From NCBI RefSeq assembly GCF_000002985.6, contig NC_003283.11, forward strand, positions 9,610,001-9,674,000: a stretch of 64,000 bases of DNA, given 5' to 3'. Below the pieces are notes generated by a model. The model had not been told where the DNA came from. It worked only from the letters and a program-made list of their open reading frames with translations, and made no database searches. Numbering within the stretch: position 1 is the stretch's first letter; each line of letters opens with the position of its first letter. This DNA is from Caenorhabditis elegans (lineage: Eukaryota; Nematoda; Chromadorea; Rhabditida; Rhabditidae). Below are positions 10,177 through 59,882 of the stretch, piece after piece. The position numbers and the translations under genes were made by a program.

Positions 10177-10231
10177 AGTCTACGAGACACCGAAGTATAT
10201 TCATCAGACGATCACTACTTTTCTTCTCATC

Positions 10232-10892
10232 ATGCAAACCTTCTCGTGAGTGAAATATACAACTAAAACTGTGTTTATTATCAAACTAATAAAATGTTAT
10301 TTCAGATCTCTTCTTCTTGCTTTGGGTCTTTTCTCTGAAGCTTCTGCTCAATTGGCTGCCTGGCCATCGCAGAGTTACTCTCCATTCTACCAAGCATTGT
10401 TTGGTGGTGCTAGCACCCCAGTTCTCTCTGCTCCAGTTGCAAAAACCGCTCCATCTGCAATTCCACTCGCTGCTCCAGCTCTTCCAGTTCCAGTTGCTGC
10501 TGCGCCATTCTTCGCATCACCAGCACCAGTGCTCGCAGCTCCAGCTCCACTTTTGGCTCCACCAGCTCCAGTCTTCGCTGCCCCACGACCAGTCTTCGCT
10601 GCCCCAGCTCTTGCTCCAGTTGCTCCAATGGCCCCAGTTCTTCGTGGTCCAGCTTTCGCCTACGCTCCATCTCCAGTTCTTGCTCCAGTTGGAGTCGCCC
10701 CAGTTGCCCCAGCTCCAGTCTTCGCTGCTCCAGCTTTTGCACCAGTTGCTCCAGTTCTTGCTGCCCCAAGATTTGTCCCGGCTTACGCTCCATTCGCCCG
10801 TGCTGCTATGTTCATCGGATCCAACAAGGCCAAGACGTACGTTTAAAAAATATAGATTTATGAGACTTCAACTTTGAAATTTCAGCGCATAA
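10232..10892 (+). CDS. Secreted Ala/Pro-rich protein (paralogue B1)
   Basis: The exons are 10232-10245, 10306-10836 and a 7-bp last exon 10886-10892, giving 183 residues. The signal peptide is M-Q-T-F-S-S-L-L-L-A-L-G-L-F-S-E-A-S-A, followed by Q-L-A-A-W-P-S-Q-S-Y-S-P-F-Y-Q-A-L-F-G-G. The core is A-P-V-F-A-A-P and A-P-V-L-A-A-P repeats, and the tail is F-I-G-S-N-K-A-K-T-A. Reading through the last donor would end the protein at 10846 as K-T-Y-V. I prefer the spliced form because the inverted copy at 12225-12886 keeps the same donor, acceptor and tiny final exon. Only about ten residues differ between the two copies. Function is unknown; an extracellular structural role is inferred. Confidence 0.88.
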
Positions 10893-12224: not shown

Positions 12225-12886
12225 TATGCGCTGAAAAATTAGTATGTCATCCAGAATAATTTGATTCTGGGTTGTACTTACGTCTTGGCCTTGTTGGATC
12301 CGATGAACATCGCAGCACGGGCGAATGGAGCGTACGCTGGGACAAATCTTGGGGCAGCAAGAACTGGAGCAACAGGTGCCAAAGCTGGAGCAGCGAAGAC
12401 TGGAGCTGGGGCAACTGGGGCGACTCCAACTGGAGCAAGAACTGGAGATGGAGCGTAGGCGAAAGCTGGACCACGAAGAATTGGGGCCATTGGAGCAACT
12501 GGAGCAAGAGCTGGGGAAGCGAAGACTGGTCGTGGGGCGGCGAAGACTGGAGCTGGTGGAGCCAAAAGTGGAGCTGGAGCTGCGAGCACTGGTGCTGGTG
12601 GTGTGAAGAATGGGGCAGCAGCAATTGGAACTGGAAGAGCTGGAGCAGCAAGTGGAATTGCAGATGGAGCAGTCTTTGCAACTGGAGCAGAGAGAACTGG
12701 GGTGCTAGCACCACCAAACAATGCTTGGTAGAATGGAGAGTAACTCTGCGATGGCCAGGCAGCCAATTGAGCAGAGGCTCCAGAGAAAAGACTTAAAGCA
12801 AGAAGAAGAGCTCTGAAATAACATTTTATTGATTTGATAATAAACACTAATTTAGCTGTATATTTCACTCACGAGAAGGTTTGCAT
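12225..12886 (-). CDS. Secreted Ala/Pro-rich protein (paralogue B2)
   Basis: The minus-strand exons are 12873-12886, 12282-12812 and 12225-12231, with exactly the same sizes (14, 531 and 7 bp) as the gene at 10232-10892. The product is 183 residues with signal peptide M-Q-T-F-S-A-L-L-L-A-L-S-L-F-S-G-A-S-A, the same W-P-S-Q-S-Y-S-P-F-Y-Q start and the same F-I-G-S-N-K-A-K-T-A end. Differences from the partner are scattered single residues, for example F-F-T-P-P versus F-F-A-S-P. Sequence similarity extends into the 5' flank. This is a recent inverted duplication or a pair kept alike by gene conversion. The large plus-strand open frames over this gene, rich in Trp and Ser, are antisense reading of the Ala/Pro codons. 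Confidence 0.88.
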
Positions 12887-12941
12887 GATGATTAGAAGAC
12901 CAGTGATGATCGTTTGATGGCTTCTCCGTTCCATCTTTCAC

Positions 12942-15460: not shown

Positions 15461-16196
15461 ATGAACACTGTCATCTCGTAAGTTTGTTTCCTATAAAATT
15501 TTCACTTTTTTACATTTTCCAACTTTTTACTTTCTTTCACAATTTATTTTTAGCCTTCTCTTCGCCGGATTGGCTCTTTCGTCGGCTCAGGTCGCAATCA
15601 ACGGACCATTCTTGGGACGTTACTACGTGGCTGCCAAGCCAGTGTTGGCTCCAGGAGTTGCACCACTTGCCGCTCCAGTTCTCGCTGCTGCTCCACCAGT
15701 CTTCGCTGCCCCAGCTCCACTTATGGCTCCACCAGCACCAGTTCTCGCTTCTTCTCCAGCATTCGCTGCCCCAGCTCCAGTCTTCGCCGCTCCACCAGCA
15801 CCAGTCTTTGCTGCCCCACCAGCACCACTCTTGGCTCCACCAGCACCAGTCATGGCTGCTCCAGCTCCACTTTTGGCTCCACCAGTCCCACCAGTTGCTC
15901 CAATCGTCCCAGCCTTTGCCCCAAGACCAGTCCTTGCTGCCCCAGCATTCGCTCCAGCTCTTGCCCCAGCCCCAGCTTTTGCTCCAGCTTTCGCTCCAGC
16001 ATTCGCCCCAGCTCCAGCATTTGCTCCAGCCTTCGCCCCAGCTCCAGTCCTTGCTCCAAGACCAGTCCTCGCTGCTCCAGCTTTTGCTCCAGCCGTCCCA
16101 GCCTTCGCCCCAGCTCCACTTGTCCCAGCCTATGCTCCATTTGCTCGCTCCGCATTCCTCATCGGAGGAAACAAGTCCAAGAAGGTGTCCGTGTAA
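15461..16196 (+). CDS. Secreted Ala/Pro-rich protein (paralogue C1)
   Basis: The exons 15461-15477 and 15554-16196 encode 219 residues. The short first exon completes the signal peptide M-N-T-V-I-S-L-L-F-A-G-L-A-L-S-S-A-Q. The mature start reads V-A-I-N-G-P-F-L-G-R-Y-Y-V-A-A-K-P-V-L-A-P-G, nearly the same as the gene at 18424-19172 and echoed in the Q/P-rich gene. The core is A-P-A-F-A-P and A-P-V-F-A-A-P-P repeats. The tail is F-L-I-G-G-N-K-S-K-K-V-S-V. AATAAA is at 16247. The next gene downstream starts only 207 bp after the stop on the same strand, so the two might share a transcript. Confidence 0.88.
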
Positions 16197-18423: not shown

Positions 18424-19172
18424 TTAAGCCTTGACGGTCTTGGCCTTGTTTCCTCCGATGAGGAAAGCAGAACGAGCAAATGGAGCATAGGCTGGGATGG
18501 CAGCTGGAACTGCTGGAGCAAAAGCTGGAATTGCTGGGGCAGCAAGCACTGGTCTTGGAGCAATAATTGGAGCTGGGGCGAAAGCTGGAATAGCTGGAGC
18601 TGCGAGAACTGGTCTTGGTGCAAGAAGTGGGGCCGGAGCAAAAGCTGGAATAGCTGGAGCAGCGAGAACCGGTCTTGGAGCAAGAATTGGAGCGGGTGCG
18701 AATGCTGGGGCAGCAAGGACTGGTCTTGGGGCAAAGGCTGAAACGATTGGAGCAACTGGTGGGACTGGTGGAGCCAAAAATGGAGCTGGAGCAGCCAAGA
18801 CTGGAGCTGGTGGGGCAGCAAAAACTGGCGCTGGAGCAGCGAATGCTGGAGCTGCAGCAAGAACTGGTGCTGGTGGAGCCAAAAGTGGGGCTGGTGGAGC
18901 AAGAAGAGGAGCTGGGGCAGCCAAGACTGTTGGAGCAGCTGCGAGCACTGGTGCTGCGACTGGGGCAACTCCTGGAGCCAATACTGGCTTGGCAGCCACG
19001 TAGTATCTTCCCATGAATGGCCCGTTAACGGCGACTTGTGCGGAAGAAAGGGCAAGTCCAGCGAAGAGAAGGCTAGAGAATAAGAAGATAAGGTATTGCA
19101 AAGAAACCATTTGGAATGATTACTAAATTGTGAAAATAAAATAAAAACTCACGCAAAGACCGAGGAGCTCAT
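18424..19172 (-). CDS. Secreted Ala/Pro-rich protein (paralogue C2)
   Basis: The minus-strand exons 19153-19172 and 18424-19072 encode 222 residues. The start is M-S-S-S-V-F-A joined to L-L-F-A-G-L-A-L-S-S-A-Q, a signal peptide. The mature end begins V-A-V-N-G-P-F-M-G-R-Y-Y-V-A-A-K-P-V-L-A-P-G. The second half repeats a unit of about 20 residues (A-P-R-P-V-L-A-A-P-A-I-P-A-F-A-P). The tail is F-L-I-G-G-N-K-A-K-T-V-K-A. An open frame runs a few codons upstream of the chosen acceptor to 19110, but the spliced form gives a proper leader and matches the paralogue at 15461. A structural extracellular role is inferred. Confidence 0.86.
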
Positions 19173-19956
19173 GATGATTATTGGATTGCTGAAACCGTTC
19201 GAGGTGTGTGCTGTCTTTTCCGATTTTTGAGGCACCTTTAAATACAACAGAGGGCGGAGAGCTCAAAACCAGTCGACGTTGTTTCTTTTTCTCATTCGGT
19301 TGCGTCAAAAAACGTTTGACGGGACGGGAGCAAGAGGAGCTCGCGGGAGCAACTTTGTGTGGATCACCACCTCTATTCACAAAAAAACTTTTTTTCATGT
19401 GGTGTGCGCGGCAATGAACGGCGGGCGCCATCTCGCGTAATGGACACAAACAAATGGCGAGAAAAAGTTGATGTTTGCGAGAGTGGCGGCACCGGGGCAC
19501 GGAAGATGCGGAAGCGTTCTTTTTGATGGTGGAGATGGGCAAATAGTAATTGAGAATGTGGCATACTGATTTGAGGAATTGCACTTTGAACATTTTGTGT
19601 TCGTTTTGATAGAAAAAATAAATAAATTTTAGACAAGCCTTCGATCTATGAACTTACATACATACTAGCAACGTTTTCAAGTATGTCTATCTAGAAAAAA
19701 CGCCAAGTGTTTCTTATAATGATTTCTAACAATTGAGGAACCATTAACATTACGTCAAAAATACTTAAACCTATCTTGGTGTAAACATCTTCATCGAAAA
19801 TACGGAAGTATGGGCATTCGATTATTACAACACCGGAGGGCAGACAAAGAAGCTGCAAGAACGCCGCCCACTCTAATGGGCAATTCAAGGTTGATTTCAC
19901 TTGACCTTTATGGGTATAAAAACAATCAAATGCGTGGAAGAAGACACATCTCAGCA
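19173..19956. promoter_or_regulatory. Divergent promoter, Ala/Pro-rich gene and collagen
   Basis: This 784-bp spacer separates a minus-strand Ala/Pro-rich gene, with a TATTTAAA-type TATA box at 19237-19244, from a plus-strand collagen with TATAAAAA at 19915-19922. The central part (about 19330-19510) is GC-rich. No gene is called here. Confidence 0.55.
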
Positions 19957-20960
19957 ATGGTTAAGACTTTGGTAACAATCGCCAGCATTGGCAGCGGAGT
20001 TGCTGTTGTTGCTTGCCTCTTCACTGTTGGATACATCTTCAATGATATCAACTCTTTCCATGATGAGGTCATTGACACTATGACTGAGTTCAAAGTGAGT
20101 CCATAAGTTCATAGCTAGATGATACAAATACTTTTTCAAATCATGAACCACCAAGTCTTCTCTCAAATTCTTTTGTAGAATAAACCTGATTAAAAATGAA
20201 TTTCACAACATTTTCAAAAATTTAGTTCAACGAGCAACAAGCATGGAACTCAATGATGAAGCCAACTGATGTATTCGGAAGAATCAAGCGTGGAATCAAC
20301 AAGAGAGGAGCCCAATGCAACTGTGGAGCTCAATCCAATGGATGCCCAGCTGGACCACCAGGACCACCAGGACAACCAGGAGCTCAAGGAGAGGCTGGAC
20401 ACGCTGGAGAGGCTGGAAAGCCAGGAGCCAACGGAGTTACCATCGGACTTACCGGAGGAAATGGACCATGTATCACTTGCCCAGCTGGAGCCCCAGGACC
20501 AGCCGGAGCTCCTGGAGCACCAGGACCACAAGGACCATCTGGAGCCCCAGGACAAGACGCTGTTGGAGAAGGACCAGGACCAGCTGGACCACAAGGACCA
20601 GCCGGAGATGCCGGAGCTCCAGGACAAGCCGGAGCACCAGGACATCCAGGAGCCCCAGGACAAGGAGGACAACGCAGCCGTGGAACTCCAGGACCAGCTG
20701 GAGCTCCAGGACCACAAGGACCAGCCGGAGGACCAGGACAACCAGGACAATCCGGAGGAGCCGGAGCACCGGGACCAGCTGGAGCTCCAGGAGCACCAGG
20801 AGGACCAGGACAGCCGGGACAAGATGGACAGCCAGGAGCCCCAGGAAACGACGGAGCTCCAGGAGGAGACGCCGCTTATTGTCCATGCCCAGCTCGCTCT
20901 CAAGTTGTCAAGCACCGCAAAGTTATGGCTCACAGACGCCACGCTAAGATTGTTGCTTAA
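19957..20960 (+). CDS. Cuticle-type collagen, copy 1
   Basis: The exons 19957-20094 and 20226-20960 encode 290 residues. The N-terminus is M-V-K-T-L-V-T-I-A, with a membrane-anchor hydrophobic stretch and the short conserved region typical of nematode cuticle collagens. A basic stretch [10 protein letters not shown] is a likely subtilisin/furin-type processing site, followed by a Cys pair (Q-C-N-C), Gly-X-Y repeats, a break around C-I-T-C, then a long Gly-X-Y domain and Y-C-P-C-P-A-R plus a basic tail. I start at 19957 rather than the in-frame ATG at 19930, because the TATA box lies at 19915 and the inverted copy has only the equivalent start. The protein should be secreted, processed and cross-linked in the cuticle. 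AATAAA is at 20993. Confidence 0.93.
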
Positions 20961-22321: not shown

Positions 22322-23326
22322 TTAGGCAGAAACCTTGGCGTGACGTCTACGGAAGACCTTGCGGTGCTTGCGAACAGCGCTGGCACGAGCTGGGCATGGA
22401 CAATATGCGGCGTCTCCTCCTGGTGCTCCAGCGTTTCCTGGTGCTCCTGGGGTTCCTGGGGTTCCCGCGTTTCCTGGTCCTCCTGGTGCTCCTGGAGCTC
22501 CAGCTGGTCCTGGGGCTCCGGCTCCTCCGGATTGTCCTGGCTGTCCTGGTCCTCCGGCTGGTCCTTGTGGTCCTGGAGCTCCAGATGGTCCTGGAGTTCC
22601 ACGGCTGCGTTGTCCTCCTTGTCCTGGGGCTCCTGGATGTCCTGGTGCTCCGGCTTGTCCTGGAGCTCCGGCATCTCCGGCTGGTCCCTGTGGTCCAGCT
22701 GGCCCTGGTCCTCCTCCAACAGCGTCTTGTCCTGGGGCTCCAGATGGTCCTTGTGGTCCTGGTGCTCCAGGAGCTCCGGCTGGTCCTGGGGCTCCAGCTG
22801 GGCAAGTGATACATGGTCCATTTCCTCCGGTAAGTCCGATGGTAACTCCGTTGGCTCCTGGCTTTCCAGCCTCTCCAGCGTGTCCAGCCTCTCCTTGAGC
22901 TCCTGGTTGGCCTGGTGGTCCTGGTGGTCCAGCTGGGCATCCATTGGATTGAGCTCCACAGTTGCATTGGGCTCCTCTCTTGTTGATTCCACGCTTGATT
23001 CTTCCGAATACATCAGTTGGCTTCATCATTGAGTTCCATGCTTGTTGCTCGTTGAACTAAATTTTTGAAAATGTTGTGAAATTCATTTTTAATCAGGTTT
23101 ATTCTACAAAAGAATTTGAGAGAAGACTTGGTGGTTCATAAATAAAAAAAAGTATTTGTATCATCTAGCTATGAACTTATGGACTCACTTTGAACTCAGT
23201 CATAGTGTCAATGACCTCATCATGGAAAGAGTTGATATCATTGAAGATGTATCCAACAGTGAAGAGACAAGCAACAACAGCAACTCCGCTGCCAATGCTG
23301 GCGATTGTTACCAAAGTCTGTACCAT
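22322..23326 (-). CDS. Cuticle-type collagen, copy 2
   Basis: The minus-strand exons 23189-23326 and 22322-23056 encode 290 residues and have exactly the exon sizes of the collagen at 19957-20960. The two proteins are nearly identical from the N-terminus through most of the Gly-X-Y domain and then diverge over the last about 45 residues: this copy ends with [15 protein letters not shown], the other with [21 protein letters not shown] box reads at 23361-23368 on the minus strand, 35 bp from the ATG. The 3' end converges on the L-domain gene, with only 65 bp between stop codons. Confidence 0.93.
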
Positions 23327-24979
23327 TTTGAAGAGGTGACTTTTCTGATTTTAGCTACCTCTTTTATACTATTATTTCTGCATGAAAACGGAAAACTATC
23401 CGTTATTTTTTCAGTATATCTTTTCTCGTAGAATGTGAAATAGTTTGAAATCAAAAGAGACGTAGAGAAATGTCATTGCCCATTTTCAGTTCCGCTTTAC
23501 TACAGGTGGTCATCAATACCAATAGTGATAGAACTATATTCAAAGATACGCAGAAAACTTTTCCTTCTCCTCCACCTATTCGACCTTCAAACCTCCAAGA
23601 TTATCGGTTTGAAAGGAGTAGTAAATAAGTAGTAAGATTCCTTTTTTGTGTCTTCTTCCGCGTTTGCTAACGTAGTTTTCTATCTGAATGCACCTATTGA
23701 TATCGAGAGAACGCTAGTGTAACTTTATTTAATATAACTTACAGTAAAAAGATAAGCTAGTATGTGATGTGGATATATTCTAAAATACCTACAAGACCGT
23801 ATATGGATCCAGATCTTCGAAGATACATTTGGAACAATGAACTTAAGAATTTCAAAAGTTTTTGAAATGTGATGGCGGTGAATCAAATCCAAAAGTAGTA
23901 CCAGGAATCTGATTACAAATTCTTCCGAATGGATTAAAAGTAGATTGATTCATAGTGGCCAACCGTGTAAAAACATGATTTGGTCAAAGCTTGGTCATTT
24001 GGTCAAAGATTTTGGTAAGAGCGTATCTTACCCTAAAACTAGGCATTAACTGCCACCTTTTCAACTAACTTGCGCTCAAAAAAACTTTATTAATAGTTAG
24101 CAAAGCCTGGACGAAACTTGAAACAGCACATCACCAAAGTCTTGCACAAGTTAAAATGTCACTGGAAAATATTTGACAAATTATTGGCAATATTTTTTGA
24201 TCAAATTGGAAGACGTCGCATAAGTCCAACAAGATCAAATTGTTGTGTGTTTGAAATCCGAAACGTTGATTTCTTAAAAATGTGATAAACTGATCTTTCC
24301 ACAAATTTAATTTGCTATTGAAAGAGCTTTGCTTCCAGTTGACTGAAAATTCTGGTTTGAAAGTCAATAAGCTCAAATAATTCAAGAGAAAAGAATACAC
24401 AAAAAGCTATATTTATTGTGTGATTAAAAACATAGTAGTTCCGACGAGCTACTACTATCAGCTATGACATGATGATTGTCACTTCAAATGTGATCCTCGT
24501 TGGCGGCTTCAATTCTGAGCCCAATCCAAGCCATTGTAGTGTTGGCGAGAGTTGAAGCAACAAGCTGATATCATCTATAAAAACAATTGCGAAAGGTCAA
24601 ACAATAAACATCTTTTTTTAATTAGAAAAGTTTCACGATGCATTCAAAAATGAAACAAACATTTTTGGACAAGTTTTTTTGAGCAAATTTTAGAAACTTT
24701 GCCAAAATGATTTGAGAATGTTTTCGGGTACAATTTCCGTTTTCATTTTGAATTGAATTTCCTAAAATTACTGATGTATTCTTGCTAGGGGAACAATTTC
24801 CTAGCTGAAATAATATTCCACCTGATTCTTTCTTATTTTAAGTTTAGTTTTTAAACTGTTAAAAATTAAAAATTTATTCGACAGATAATATCAAGCTCAA
24901 ATAAATATTTAGTTCAAAGACCGGTAATATATTTTCAAATGAGACCGAGATAATTCATGTTACACGTAAAAAAGAGATC
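23327..24979. other. Intergenic upstream of collagen copy 2, downstream of atl-1
   Basis: It includes the collagen promoter (TATA at 23361) and the atl-1 3' UTR. A short minus-strand open stretch at about 24470-24575, behind an acceptor-like TTTTATAG, ends in a stop but is too short to call. Nothing else is seen. Confidence 0.5.
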
Positions 24980-40429: not shown

Positions 40430-41170
40430 CCTTCGACAAGACGGCCACAACAAAATAACAACGGCAACAAGATTGGAGTTATGAGTTGGACTAACGAAGG
40501 ACACGCCGACGGACCACATCTACCAAGAATGCAGAGTTCTCCCTTTGAAAGAAGAATATAAGCTCTCGACGCAACAGATGTACTTGGCAGCGATCAAGTC
40601 AAACACGCACCCGTGCAGAGACCTGGAAGCAAAGCGCCAACTGGAACGAACCTCTAAACCGCCAAGGATCCCGCCGCTGAAGCTATCGGACTCTGAAAAG
40701 CTCAGACTCGACAACATCCCAGGCGACAAGACGGAGGCCCAAAAGAAGAATCACACGAAGCTGGTAGCGGACTTCATCAGGAATGCACCAAACAACAAAA
40801 TTCTCAACAAACCTCCACCAAGAGTGAACTACAGGGACGAGAGGACGCTGCCAAAGGAGACTCGATGCGAATTGGCACGGCTAAGATGCGGTCACTCACT
40901 CCTCGTCGAGAAATACAAAGCCCGGCTGGAAGAAAGGCAAATAAAGAAATGTCTGAATTGTGGAGATGAAGAAGGAGATGTGCAACACCTATTAAGTTGC
41001 CTCCAAACTCCAGTCCCCCTAGAGGAACTCTGGACTTCTCCACTCACGGTGGCGGCGGCCTTAGGGCTCCCCACAAAAACTCCATATGACCCTGGAGGAG
41101 GTCATTAGCTATGCGAGACATAGCTGGCTGCTGCGCAGCCATTGTTGTTGCACAACAACAACAACAACAT
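40430..41170 (+). mobile_element. 5'-truncated non-LTR retrotransposon tail
   Basis: An open frame (about 40487-41108) encodes only the C-terminal end of a LINE polyprotein. It has an R-C-G-H-S-L-L motif and a zinc-knuckle-like C-L-N-C-G-D-E-E-G-D-V-Q-H-L-L-S-C segment, typical after the reverse transcriptase of CR1/Jockey-like elements. It is GC-richer than its surroundings, and it ends in a (CAA)n tract at 41150-41168, the usual short-repeat tail. There is no reverse transcriptase core, so the copy is dead on arrival. The frame is still open over about 200 codons, suggesting a recent insertion. Confidence 0.75.
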
Positions 41171-56935: not shown

Positions 56936-59882
56936 ATGGCATCCGAGATGAGTAGAGCTAATAATTACTGTTGCGAATGTGTTGCTTCACAAGGTAAGAA
57001 CAATGACTATAATCTAAAAACTTTTAGTAGCTTAAAAAATATTTTTGAATAATGTCTGTTTAGAAAAATTCCGGAAAATTCTTCAACTCGCGATGAATAG
57101 CTGAGAAAACCTTTCAGATTTTATTACTACTAAAGTATAGTTTTTTTTTTCAGTTTATAATTTTTCAGGTAGATGTAGTGCAGATACGTGCCCGTGTGTA
57201 GCCGCTAGAAAAACTTGTGACGAGCACTGTGAAAGTACAAGGTAAGTAAAGTTCCCTACCTTTATATAAATCTAAAAACCCTAGACGCAGACTACAATGT
57301 ACGTCAGAGTCTCATATCAAAATGCAAATTTACAAAACCTTTCCTCCACTCTACGTTTTGATTTCTCCATTTTCATTCTTTTTCTTACCCACACTTACAT
57401 CTTCTCTTCCTCCTCTCACAACAACATATCAAATATCACAAGTGCACTTGCCCGCTCAATTGGGCAATTGGGAATCGGAAAGAAGAGACCAAAATATTCT
57501 TCATTTTACTTTTTGGTTAGAAAAAGAGAGCATCATTATAGTTGGAGAAACAAATAATACATAGTGCAGTTTTGAAATTTTTAGATATCGAGGAGACTGT
57601 CTAAATCAAGCAATTTGTAAGTGTTCTTGTGAAGTAGATCCTGCAAAACCAGCAAAGAACGCGTGTGCCAAATCGGAACGATGTGATTGTCTTCGAATAA
57701 AAGAAGGATGTAGTAAGCTGTGTGCATGTAAGCAGATTTGTAAGAACAAGGTTAGTAAAAGGGAGATTCTCTTCAACATCACACTTTTCTCAGGAAGCAC
57801 CAAAGAAGCTGGCTAAAGTTGCGAAACCTACATCAGGGTGTCAATGTGCAAAAGGAAAGAAACAATGTGTGAAAAAGGAATGTGCTTGTAGAACTGTTTA
57901 CGGGTTCTGCTCAGCAAGTTGTAAATGCGGAGGAGATTGTACAAACGGAGCATCGAAGTTTTCGGTTCCAAAACATGTTCAGAATTGTTTTTTGGAGCAC
58001 AAACATGAATCATCTGGGTTGATTGTTACATTGATCGGTGAAGATTACGTTTATCGTGGTGATTTCTATCATGAGTCGAAAGGAGAACCACATGTAGAAG
58101 AACAATTAGTTGCTGCAATTTATGATCTCATTTCCAAGTATACTGTAGATCTTCATGAAATTCAAATCTTCGTCTCGAAATCTCCTTGTTTCCATCAGGA
58201 TTGTGAGCCGAAATGTGAAGTTGTGGACGAATGTAAAAGCAATAAAGCATGTGCTAAACTACTCGGATTGCTTTTGAGTAAAGTTCGAAAAGAAATCAAA
58301 AAAGTTGATGTGAAGATGACAGTGAAGTTCTTGTATCCACATTTGAACCGAGGAGATTTGTACACTAAACAAGGAATTCTGTGTATGCTTCAAGCTGGTA
58401 TTAAAGTTGAGCCATTGCTTATGAAAGATTGGTGTTCAATTATGGATTGGAGTCCGCATGTTGATCATAAGGGAGACTATCTTCAACTTTGGAATAATCA
58501 TCACTTAGATAAGGTGAGATTTTATTGAAACTGAAAATTTTTCTAAAAGTGCCAAAAATACTTAAAAGCTAATAATGCTAAGATTTTGGTGGTAACTTAT
58601 AAATGTACATCAAGATACATTTTGTTTATAAAACTTTTTATATCTTCTTAAAGTTCCAGAAATAAATATTTTCAGGCCGTAGCACAATCGCAACTTTTCA
58701 TCAACGAATGCCGCCGTGCCCTCGGTCTTTCAATGAAATTCTGGGTTGCCGAAATTCATGAAATAGTCAAAGACACAATTCTACATTTCTCCGATCTTCG
58801 TACCAAATGTGGGGATCTTAACGATGCACTCAAACAACTAGATCTGACTGCAACTCCTCACAAGATTCGTTCAACACCTTCAAAACGCAGAAGTTTCATT
58901 GATCTTCACGAACTTCGAGACAAATTATTGAGATCGTCGTCGTCGGACGGTGGAAAGAAAGCAGGGTCTCATGTGTCAGTAGCCAGGTAGCCTCTCCCGC
59001 ATCTCGCTTTCGCTATCTCTGTTCCAAACACATATTTCCTGTTTTAATGGAAATTAGAAGGGTTCAGGTGTTTTTTTGCTAATTACGCCTTCCCTTATTA
59101 CTTGCAAAATTGAATGTTACTTTATTGAAATCAGAAATTATATGTGTGTTGTCCCACTGTGTTTAAATTGCACTTCTGATTATCAGCATGTGAAAATATG
59201 ATATTTCATAGTCACCTTTCATCAAAAATTCGTTTCCTAGCAAATTATGGCATTTAATCAATAACTTTTCATCTCAACAGTTCGAGGCAACTTGTCAAAC
59301 GATTTTCTTGAAAACCAAGACAATTTTTTGATAACATTTCAAATAAGTTGACAAATTGTTGTTATCTTGTTGCTAACAAGTTTGTTTGGAAGATCCCAAA
59401 GTGTGTCGGAAGTTGTAGATGTTTAGCAGGAAGTAGCAAGTTGGTTTAAAATTCCCAAAAATATATTTTTATCCAAGAAACTTTTTCATTAAAAGATAGT
59501 AGGCTTGATGACATCCTGACAACACTCTAGCAACTAACTTTTTGGCATTGCCTCGGAACTATTTTCATTATTCTAACTATACCTAACTACACAACGCAGT
59601 AATCTCACAAAAATTTATACCAGTTTCTGTGCACGAGCTTTTAACACCTAATAACAAAATACAACTAAAAATGAACAAACCTTAACAACATTTTACAAAT
59701 TTAATTTATTTTTCAGTGAGGATGCTCAAGCTCAAGCAATGGTTGCTTCTTTCTGTGGACGTTCATTCGATGATTGTGAGACTGATGAAATCGCTCAAAG
59801 AATCCGTCGTGCAACTGCTAACATCAATCTGGAAATTGAAACGCTCATGGAGTTTCTCAATCACAAGGGAGCTCTTTCTTGA
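56936..59882 (+). CDS. CXC-domain protein fused to an AID/APOBEC-like cytidine deaminase domain
   Basis: The six exons 56936-56993, 57169-57241, 57585-57750, 57794-58513, 58676-58986 and 59717-59882 give 497 residues. Residues 12-148 hold three tandem CXC modules on the pattern C-x-C-x6-C-x4-C-x-C-x6-C-x3-C-x-C-x3-C; the third is cleanest (C115, C117, C124, C129, C131, C138, C142, C144, C148). This is the DNA-binding fold of tesmin/TSO1/LIN-54. Residues about 172-340 read as a zinc-dependent deaminase: H199-V-E201, then F-V-S-K-S-P-C231 and C236, later F-L-Y-P-H-L-N-R and A-G-I-K-V-E-P-L-L-M-K-D-W. Order and spacing follow AID (H56, E58, C87, C90; A-G-V-Q-I). The C-terminal about 150 residues are helical, partly Ser/Lys-rich. 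The start is the first in-frame ATG after an upstream stop. The exon 5 donor at 58987 is inferred from frame. I believe the locus is ZK287.1. The substrate is unknown. Confidence 0.82.

Follow-up and report, generated by a model that had tools for sequence, protein, structure and literature searches.

Our analysis of the whole 64,000-nucleotide stretch of DNA (the window) revealed a gene whose product combines N-terminal CXC-type cysteine modules with a domain of the AID/APOBEC family. We interpret this product as a CXC-tethered, divergent member of that family, for which the odds between an active and a pseudo-catalytic protein are near even. Its likeliest function, to which we assign a probability of roughly 0.48, would be that of a nucleic-acid-bound, probably nuclear protein that changes C to U in single-stranded nucleic acid near its bound site.

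Results

The six-exon gene model proposed in the initial annotation (Table 1) is sound. All five introns have GT-AG junctions, and the joined exons give 1494 nt in frame, encoding 497 residues plus a stop, with codon usage in agreement. Based on a codon table for which ten long open frames in the window, assumed to be coding, were used, the joined frame scored 0.143 bits per codon, compared to -0.36 and -0.718 for the other two frames. The true frame was the highest of the three in each of the six exons, including the 73-base exon 2, where it was slightly negative (-0.052 versus -0.131 and -1.543), and in the four introns scored (of five) all three frames were negative. Since exon 57794-58513 holds CXC module 3 together with most of the deaminase domain, the fusion of the two parts is independent of any splice. 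The last exon sits beyond a 730-base intron. Readthrough beyond the exon 5 donor (58987-58990) completes one codon and then meets a stop, so that an isoform without the last 55 residues is possible.

Table 1. Features of the gene and its predicted protein, in coordinates of the window.
Feature	Position	Strand	Basis and remarks
Whole gene, 497 aa	56936..59882	+	Six exons: 56936-56993, 57169-57241, 57585-57750, 57794-58513, 58676-58986, 59717-59882; exon join, codon score
CXC-like module 1, residues 13-51	56972..57606	+	Encoded across exons 1-3; Asn and all Cys but Cys-8 present (eight of nine); Pfam TCR 10.5 bits
CXC module 2, residues 55-98	57616..57747	+	Full nine-Cys-plus-Asn pattern; no Pfam TCR match of its own
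CXC module 3, residues 115-150	57839..57946	+	Full nine-Cys-plus-Asn pattern; Pfam TCR 19.1 bits alone
AID/APOBEC-like domain, residues 158-347	57968..58699	+	PF08210 match, element order, PDB matches; spans intron 58514-58675
H199-V200-E201	58091..58099	+	Presumed zinc His and catalytic Glu; translation, alignment
K228-S229-P230-C231	58178..58189	+	Corresponds to W-S-P-C with Lys for Trp; first zinc Cys retained; alignment
Insert, residues 232-251 (20 residues)	58190..58249	+	H233/C236/C240/C246; candidate for an additional metal site next to the active centre
C252	58250..58252	+	Likely second zinc Cys at start of helix 3; alignment, CAKLLGLLL versus CARHVADFL of AID
C-terminal extension, residues 386-497 (112 residues)	58814..59882	+	No family match above cut-off

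The assignment of the domain at residues 158-347 to the AID/APOBEC family, the family named in the initial annotation, is solid, the domain being a divergent member. It matched the Pfam model APOBEC_N (PF08210, cut-off 25 bits) over profile positions 2-169 of 170 with 107.6 bits (E 8.8e-31); an AID chain analyzed for comparison scored 208.7 bits. The initial annotation had remarked that the domain may be catalogued. The APOBEC_N seed may include nematode sequences, and if so the match is less independent as evidence and the domain is already catalogued. Scores against the NAD1 model (19.3 bits for the whole protein, 22.2 bits for the domain) and the APOBEC2 model (22.5 bits for the domain) stayed under the respective cut-offs, in contrast to 205.5 and 201.9 bits for the AID chain.

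The predicted fold provides more independent support for the family link than the PF08210 match. A single-sequence model of residues 150-339, which is of low confidence (mean pLDDT 53.3, pTM 0.55), displayed the element order a1-b1-b2-a2-b3-a3-b4-a4-b5-a5-a6, in which helix 4 connects strands 4 and 5 and the last elements are helices, as in the AID/APOBEC fold. When this model was used in a structure search (best 50 of 1278 matches, E up to 10), the best 24 PDB matches were all AID/APOBEC chains, and among the matches listed other folds appeared only from the twenty-fifth on. Of these 24, 21 had an E value no higher than 0.001; their TM-scores by model length were 0.39-0.48, below 0.5, and so indicate agreement in layout and element order and not in exact fold or detail. 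Loop 3 as far as H199, and likewise residues 229-252, which include the insert, had a pLDDT below 50. The check by fold prediction that had been suggested earlier therefore yielded a deaminase fold, albeit on a weak model.

Comparisons at the level of single sequences were weak. Pairwise scores set against 500 shuffles corresponded to Z values of 7.6 for A3G-CTD, 3.1 for AID and 3.5 for A3G-NTD; only the comparison with A3G-CTD cleared the shuffles, the top shuffle exceeding the real score in the other two. A phmmer search with the deaminase part against solved structures returned no AID/APOBEC protein and one chance match (E 9.6), and in NCBIfam the sole match was a weak one to RibD, at 15.8 bits where the cut-off is 156.35. 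None of the 15 stretches that fit the pattern in bacterial and archaeal genomes was confirmed as a relative, and the viral contigs contained no match to the pattern, which is what one would expect of a gene from an animal.

The motif letters on which the initial annotation relied are present in the protein, namely H199-V-E201, S-P-C231-F-H-Q-D-C236, the 31-residue gap between His and Cys, and AGIKVEPLLMKDW. In each of three reference domains the corresponding gap is 30 residues, and HxE, SPC, C252 with helix 3, the loop-7 Tyr (FLYPH versus RLYFC) and the AG motif could all be aligned with these references. C236 had been taken as the second zinc cysteine in a PCx4C motif, a spacing for which the zinc ligands H70, C101 and C106 of A3A are a precedent (PMC5414352, in excerpt). 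However, the multiple alignment and the pairwise alignment with A3G-CTD both open a gap at this point and place C252 at the second zinc Cys. In line with this, when 11-residue segments of the whole protein were scored against the second-zinc-Cys stretch of the three references (mean -9.7, s.d. 6.6), the segment at C252 (CAKLLGLLLSK) reached 16.3, the best value in the protein, compared to -5.0 for C236, -7.0 for C240 and -1.0 for C246. PCx4C is consequently disfavoured as the zinc motif; the alignments and the segment score together point to C252 as the most likely second zinc cysteine and to PC-x20-C as the motif. The intervening residues include three Cys (C236, C240 and C246) and H233, numerically enough for one more zinc, and they might constitute an extra metal site next to the active centre. 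A 2018 PNAS survey by Krishnan reportedly mentions in its abstract new metal-binding inserts in several AID/APOBEC clades.

Residues bearing on activity differ as well. A3A relies on the side chain of its N57 to organise the nucleotide that it binds; this Asn is, according to the authors, completely conserved in catalytically active APOBEC domains, the single changes N57Q or N57D severely disrupted activity, and inactive A3 domains lack the loop-3 Asn (PMC5414352, in excerpt). The window protein has no Asn anywhere between residues 164 and 198, and the Asn column is occupied by H192 according to the alignment, or by S194 when counted back from H199. The exact column is uncertain, because in the alignment used here it holds Ser in A3G-NTD, whereas the source, which terms the A3G N-terminal domain pseudo-catalytic, names Gly at this position in the rhesus protein (PMC5414352, in excerpt). 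Since inactive A3 domains are likewise devoid of the Asn, its absence speaks to activity and not to family membership. The Trp of SWSPC is replaced by Lys228, which may be tolerated in part, because in A3A it is the main-chain carbonyl of the Trp that binds the target cytosine, at its amino group, though the Trp also contacts the neighbouring base (PMC5414352, in excerpt). In addition, the pseudo-catalytic A3G-NTD also retains HxE and PCxxC, and the presence of HxE and the cysteines alone is therefore no proof of activity. Calling the protein a cytidine deaminase, as the initial annotation did, is thus unsafe, given the missing Asn of active APOBECs and the Lys at the position of the SWSPC Trp.

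In the N-terminal region, eight Cys and one Asn are common to all three of the CXC modules that had been proposed. Modules 2 and 3 have the complete set of nine Cys plus Asn and agree with the published consensus of the CXC superfamily (Zn3Cys9), CX[C/H]X2-13CX4-7CXCX5-60CX2-4CX1-2CX2-15CXN (PMC3447885, in excerpt); for these two the proposal stands, but module 1, without Cys-8, falls short of it. This loose consensus was also present in 97 of 5000 composition-keeping shuffles of residues 1-155, while a tighter core motif, which was composed after inspection of the modules, occurred twice in the protein and in none of the 5000 shuffles. A long match to the loose consensus at residues 13-98 was rejected as an artefact that spans modules 1 and 2 together. 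No module exceeded the Pfam TCR cut-off of 23.5 bits, and module 3 scored 14.9 bits when the first 155 residues were scanned as a whole. Searched against PDB sequences, a profile built from the three modules gave 17 matches with E values up to 10. Fifteen of these were EZH1/EZH2 (E 0.028 to 0.22) and the remaining two were cysteine-rich channel toxins (E 0.057 and 0.48), which implies that the score is partly due to cysteine content alone. A phmmer search of solved structures with the CXC part gave no match, and module 2 modelled alone reached a pLDDT of 49.1 and a pTM of 0.24. Residues 1-155 are basic (29 K+R versus 15 D+E), and the CXC region is likely to bind DNA or chromatin.

The initial annotation had further described the protein as sequence-targeted by analogy to LIN54. 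The DNA-reading tyrosine of LIN54 presumably lies directly before Cys-4, in agreement with the residue numbers of the LIN54 paper, and all three modules lack a tyrosine at this position, which is taken by T26, R76 and E128. LIN54-type sequence choice is consequently unsupported. LIN54 reads TTYRAA through one tyrosine per module, while MSL2 inserts an arginine instead (PMC4974476, in excerpt), and sequence-specific binding of another kind is therefore conceivable, with R76 before Cys-4 of module 2 as a candidate for MSL2-like arginine reading.

A family scan of residues 338-497 gave nothing above cut-off; by eye, the C-terminal extension is rich in Ser and charged residues and has a helical-looking end. 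Elsewhere in the window, Pfam recognised a PI3/PI4-type kinase domain, a sulfate permease, a PHO4 phosphate transporter and a P450, and the gene order presumably resembles the neighbourhood of atl-1 and hcp-2 on C. elegans chromosome V. The window also contains inverted repeats. A pair of collagen-like genes in opposite directions, with Gly-Pro-rich frames by eye (20132-20896 / 22386-23150 and 19941-20136 / 23147-23342), is 96% alike over 765 bases and 95% over 196 bases, suggestive of a recent duplication or gene conversion. A second pair consists of Pro/Ala-rich repetitive frames (10211-10842 / 12276-12907, 95% over 632 bases), and a third lies within 15551-15960 / 18690-19075, with pieces 75-94% alike. 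An open frame at 40485-41108 had no Pfam match; we take its cysteine-histidine end to resemble the tail of a non-LTR retrotransposon protein.

Discussion

In the mechanism that we propose, the Zn3Cys9-type CXC modules (about residues 13-150) would anchor the protein on DNA or chromatin, and the domain at residues 158-347 would use H199, C231 and C252 as ligands of a single catalytic-type zinc, E201 being the putative proton shuttle. The cysteine-rich insert between the two presumed zinc cysteines would reshape the mouth through which the substrate enters. As in the classical AID/APOBECs, C would probably be changed to U in single-stranded nucleic acid close to where the protein is bound, and the most ordinary role of such a protein would be the restriction of mobile or foreign nucleic acid. 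Catalysis itself we consider to have about even odds.

The second-ranked explanation, to which we give roughly a one-in-three chance, is that of a pseudo-enzyme, in which the AID/APOBEC fold would serve as a zinc-stabilised nucleic-acid-binding module without deamination, like A3G-NTD, and together with the CXC region would form a chromatin or RNA adaptor. That two residues, the Asn found in active APOBECs and the SWSPC Trp, are both lost is consistent with this explanation, as is the retention of HxE and PCxxC in the pseudo-catalytic A3G-NTD (PMC5414352, in excerpt). However, the catalytic Glu and three zinc ligands are in place, and K228 could be tolerated at a position where A3A employs a main-chain carbonyl, even if the Trp there touches the neighbouring base too (PMC5414352, in excerpt). 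A third explanation, which we regard as unlikely, retains deamination but on another substrate. With K228 in place of Trp and H192 or S194 in place of Asn, the pocket, together with the insert, would suit another base or another context, for example structured RNA, a base beside the CXC-bound site or cytosine in modified form. In its favour, the insert with its three Cys and its His lies between the presumed zinc cysteines, adjoining the segment that corresponds to Loop 5, a substrate contact in A3A (PMC5414352, in excerpt), but residues 229-252 are poorly modelled (pLDDT <50). Similarly doubtful is a self-targeting nematode base editor, in which the CXC region would dock on chosen DNA or chromatin and the AID/APOBEC domain, with a second zinc knuckle, would edit a cytosine or modified cytosine there, acting as a programmed mutator, a genome defence or an epigenetic eraser in an animal without AID-type immunity. 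Finally, an artefact of the gene model or of chance, with wrong exons joining unrelated cysteine-rich and deaminase-like stretches, might be suspected from the position of the last exon past its long intron and the immediate stop upon readthrough of exon 5, but is already strongly disfavoured and highly improbable, given that one exon contains module 3 and most of the deaminase domain and that the true frame has the highest codon score in all six exons.

If the CXC-tethered protein is active, it would represent an AID/APOBEC enzyme that carries its own chromatin anchor, in an animal amenable to genetics, and the role of such enzymes outside vertebrate immunity would become accessible through knockout and mutation spectra. 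If it is inactive, it would be an invertebrate pseudo-deaminase whose fold has been retained for a purpose other than editing. In either case the insert between C231 and C252 serves as a natural experiment on what surrounds the active site. The insert, the missing Asn and the CXC head are details of specialist interest in a protein that is real and testable, with a solid family link, and already catalogued.

The deaminase-fold survey by Iyer et al. of 2011 is said to include a C. elegans AID/APOBEC-like protein, which is of the same family as the window gene and may well be the product of the same gene. Earlier work had identified, in both Nematostella vectensis and C. elegans, putative deaminases of nucleic acid whose similarity to vertebrate AID is extremely low (PMC5956068, in excerpt, citing a 2011 survey), and nematodes are named among the invertebrates having conserved members (PMC12993061, in excerpt). 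The AID/APOBEC link in this worm group was thus already known, and the statement in the initial annotation that the animal is usually thought to lack AID/APOBEC is dated, the domain being recognised by a Pfam model as well. No paper on a CXC-APOBEC fusion was found among the open-licence literature; since the main surveys (Iyer 2011, Krishnan 2018) lie outside that search, we do not claim the architecture as unpublished. The available parts of PMC12993061, PMC6651903, PMC11004436 and PMC3482391 do not mention the window gene.

Among known systems, C. elegans CDD-2/SVH-17 resembles the window gene in belonging to the deaminase superfamily, in its host and in the C-to-U editing proposed for it (PMC11305532, in excerpt). 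However, CDD-2 clusters with cytosine nucleoside deaminases, its coding region and promoter together measure about 1.4 kb, and its authors state that svh-1 mRNA editing by CDD-2 in animals lacks biochemical evidence; as a nucleoside-type deaminase with a far shorter gene, it is ruled out as the window gene (PMC11305532, in excerpt). With the CXC superfamily (MSL2, LIN54/tesmin/TSO1 and the EZ pre-SET region; Zn3Cys9) the window protein shares the nine-Cys-plus-Asn pattern in two modules and an eight-Cys version of it in the third. The closest, though weak, solved neighbours of these modules are EZH1/EZH2, and they differ from LIN54/tesmin in the absence of a tyrosine before Cys-4 and in scores under the Pfam TCR cut-off. 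With the AID/APOBEC family (AID, APOBEC2, APOBEC3, NAD1/NAD2) the protein has in common the order of fold elements, HxE, the first zinc Cys in SPC, the helix-3 Cys, the loop-7 Tyr, the AG motif and a later helix with Trp. It differs from that family, according to the alignment, in a PC-x20-C motif with a cysteine-rich insert in place of PC-x2-4-C, and further in the absent Asn, the Lys in place of the Trp of SWSPC and the N-terminal CXC region.
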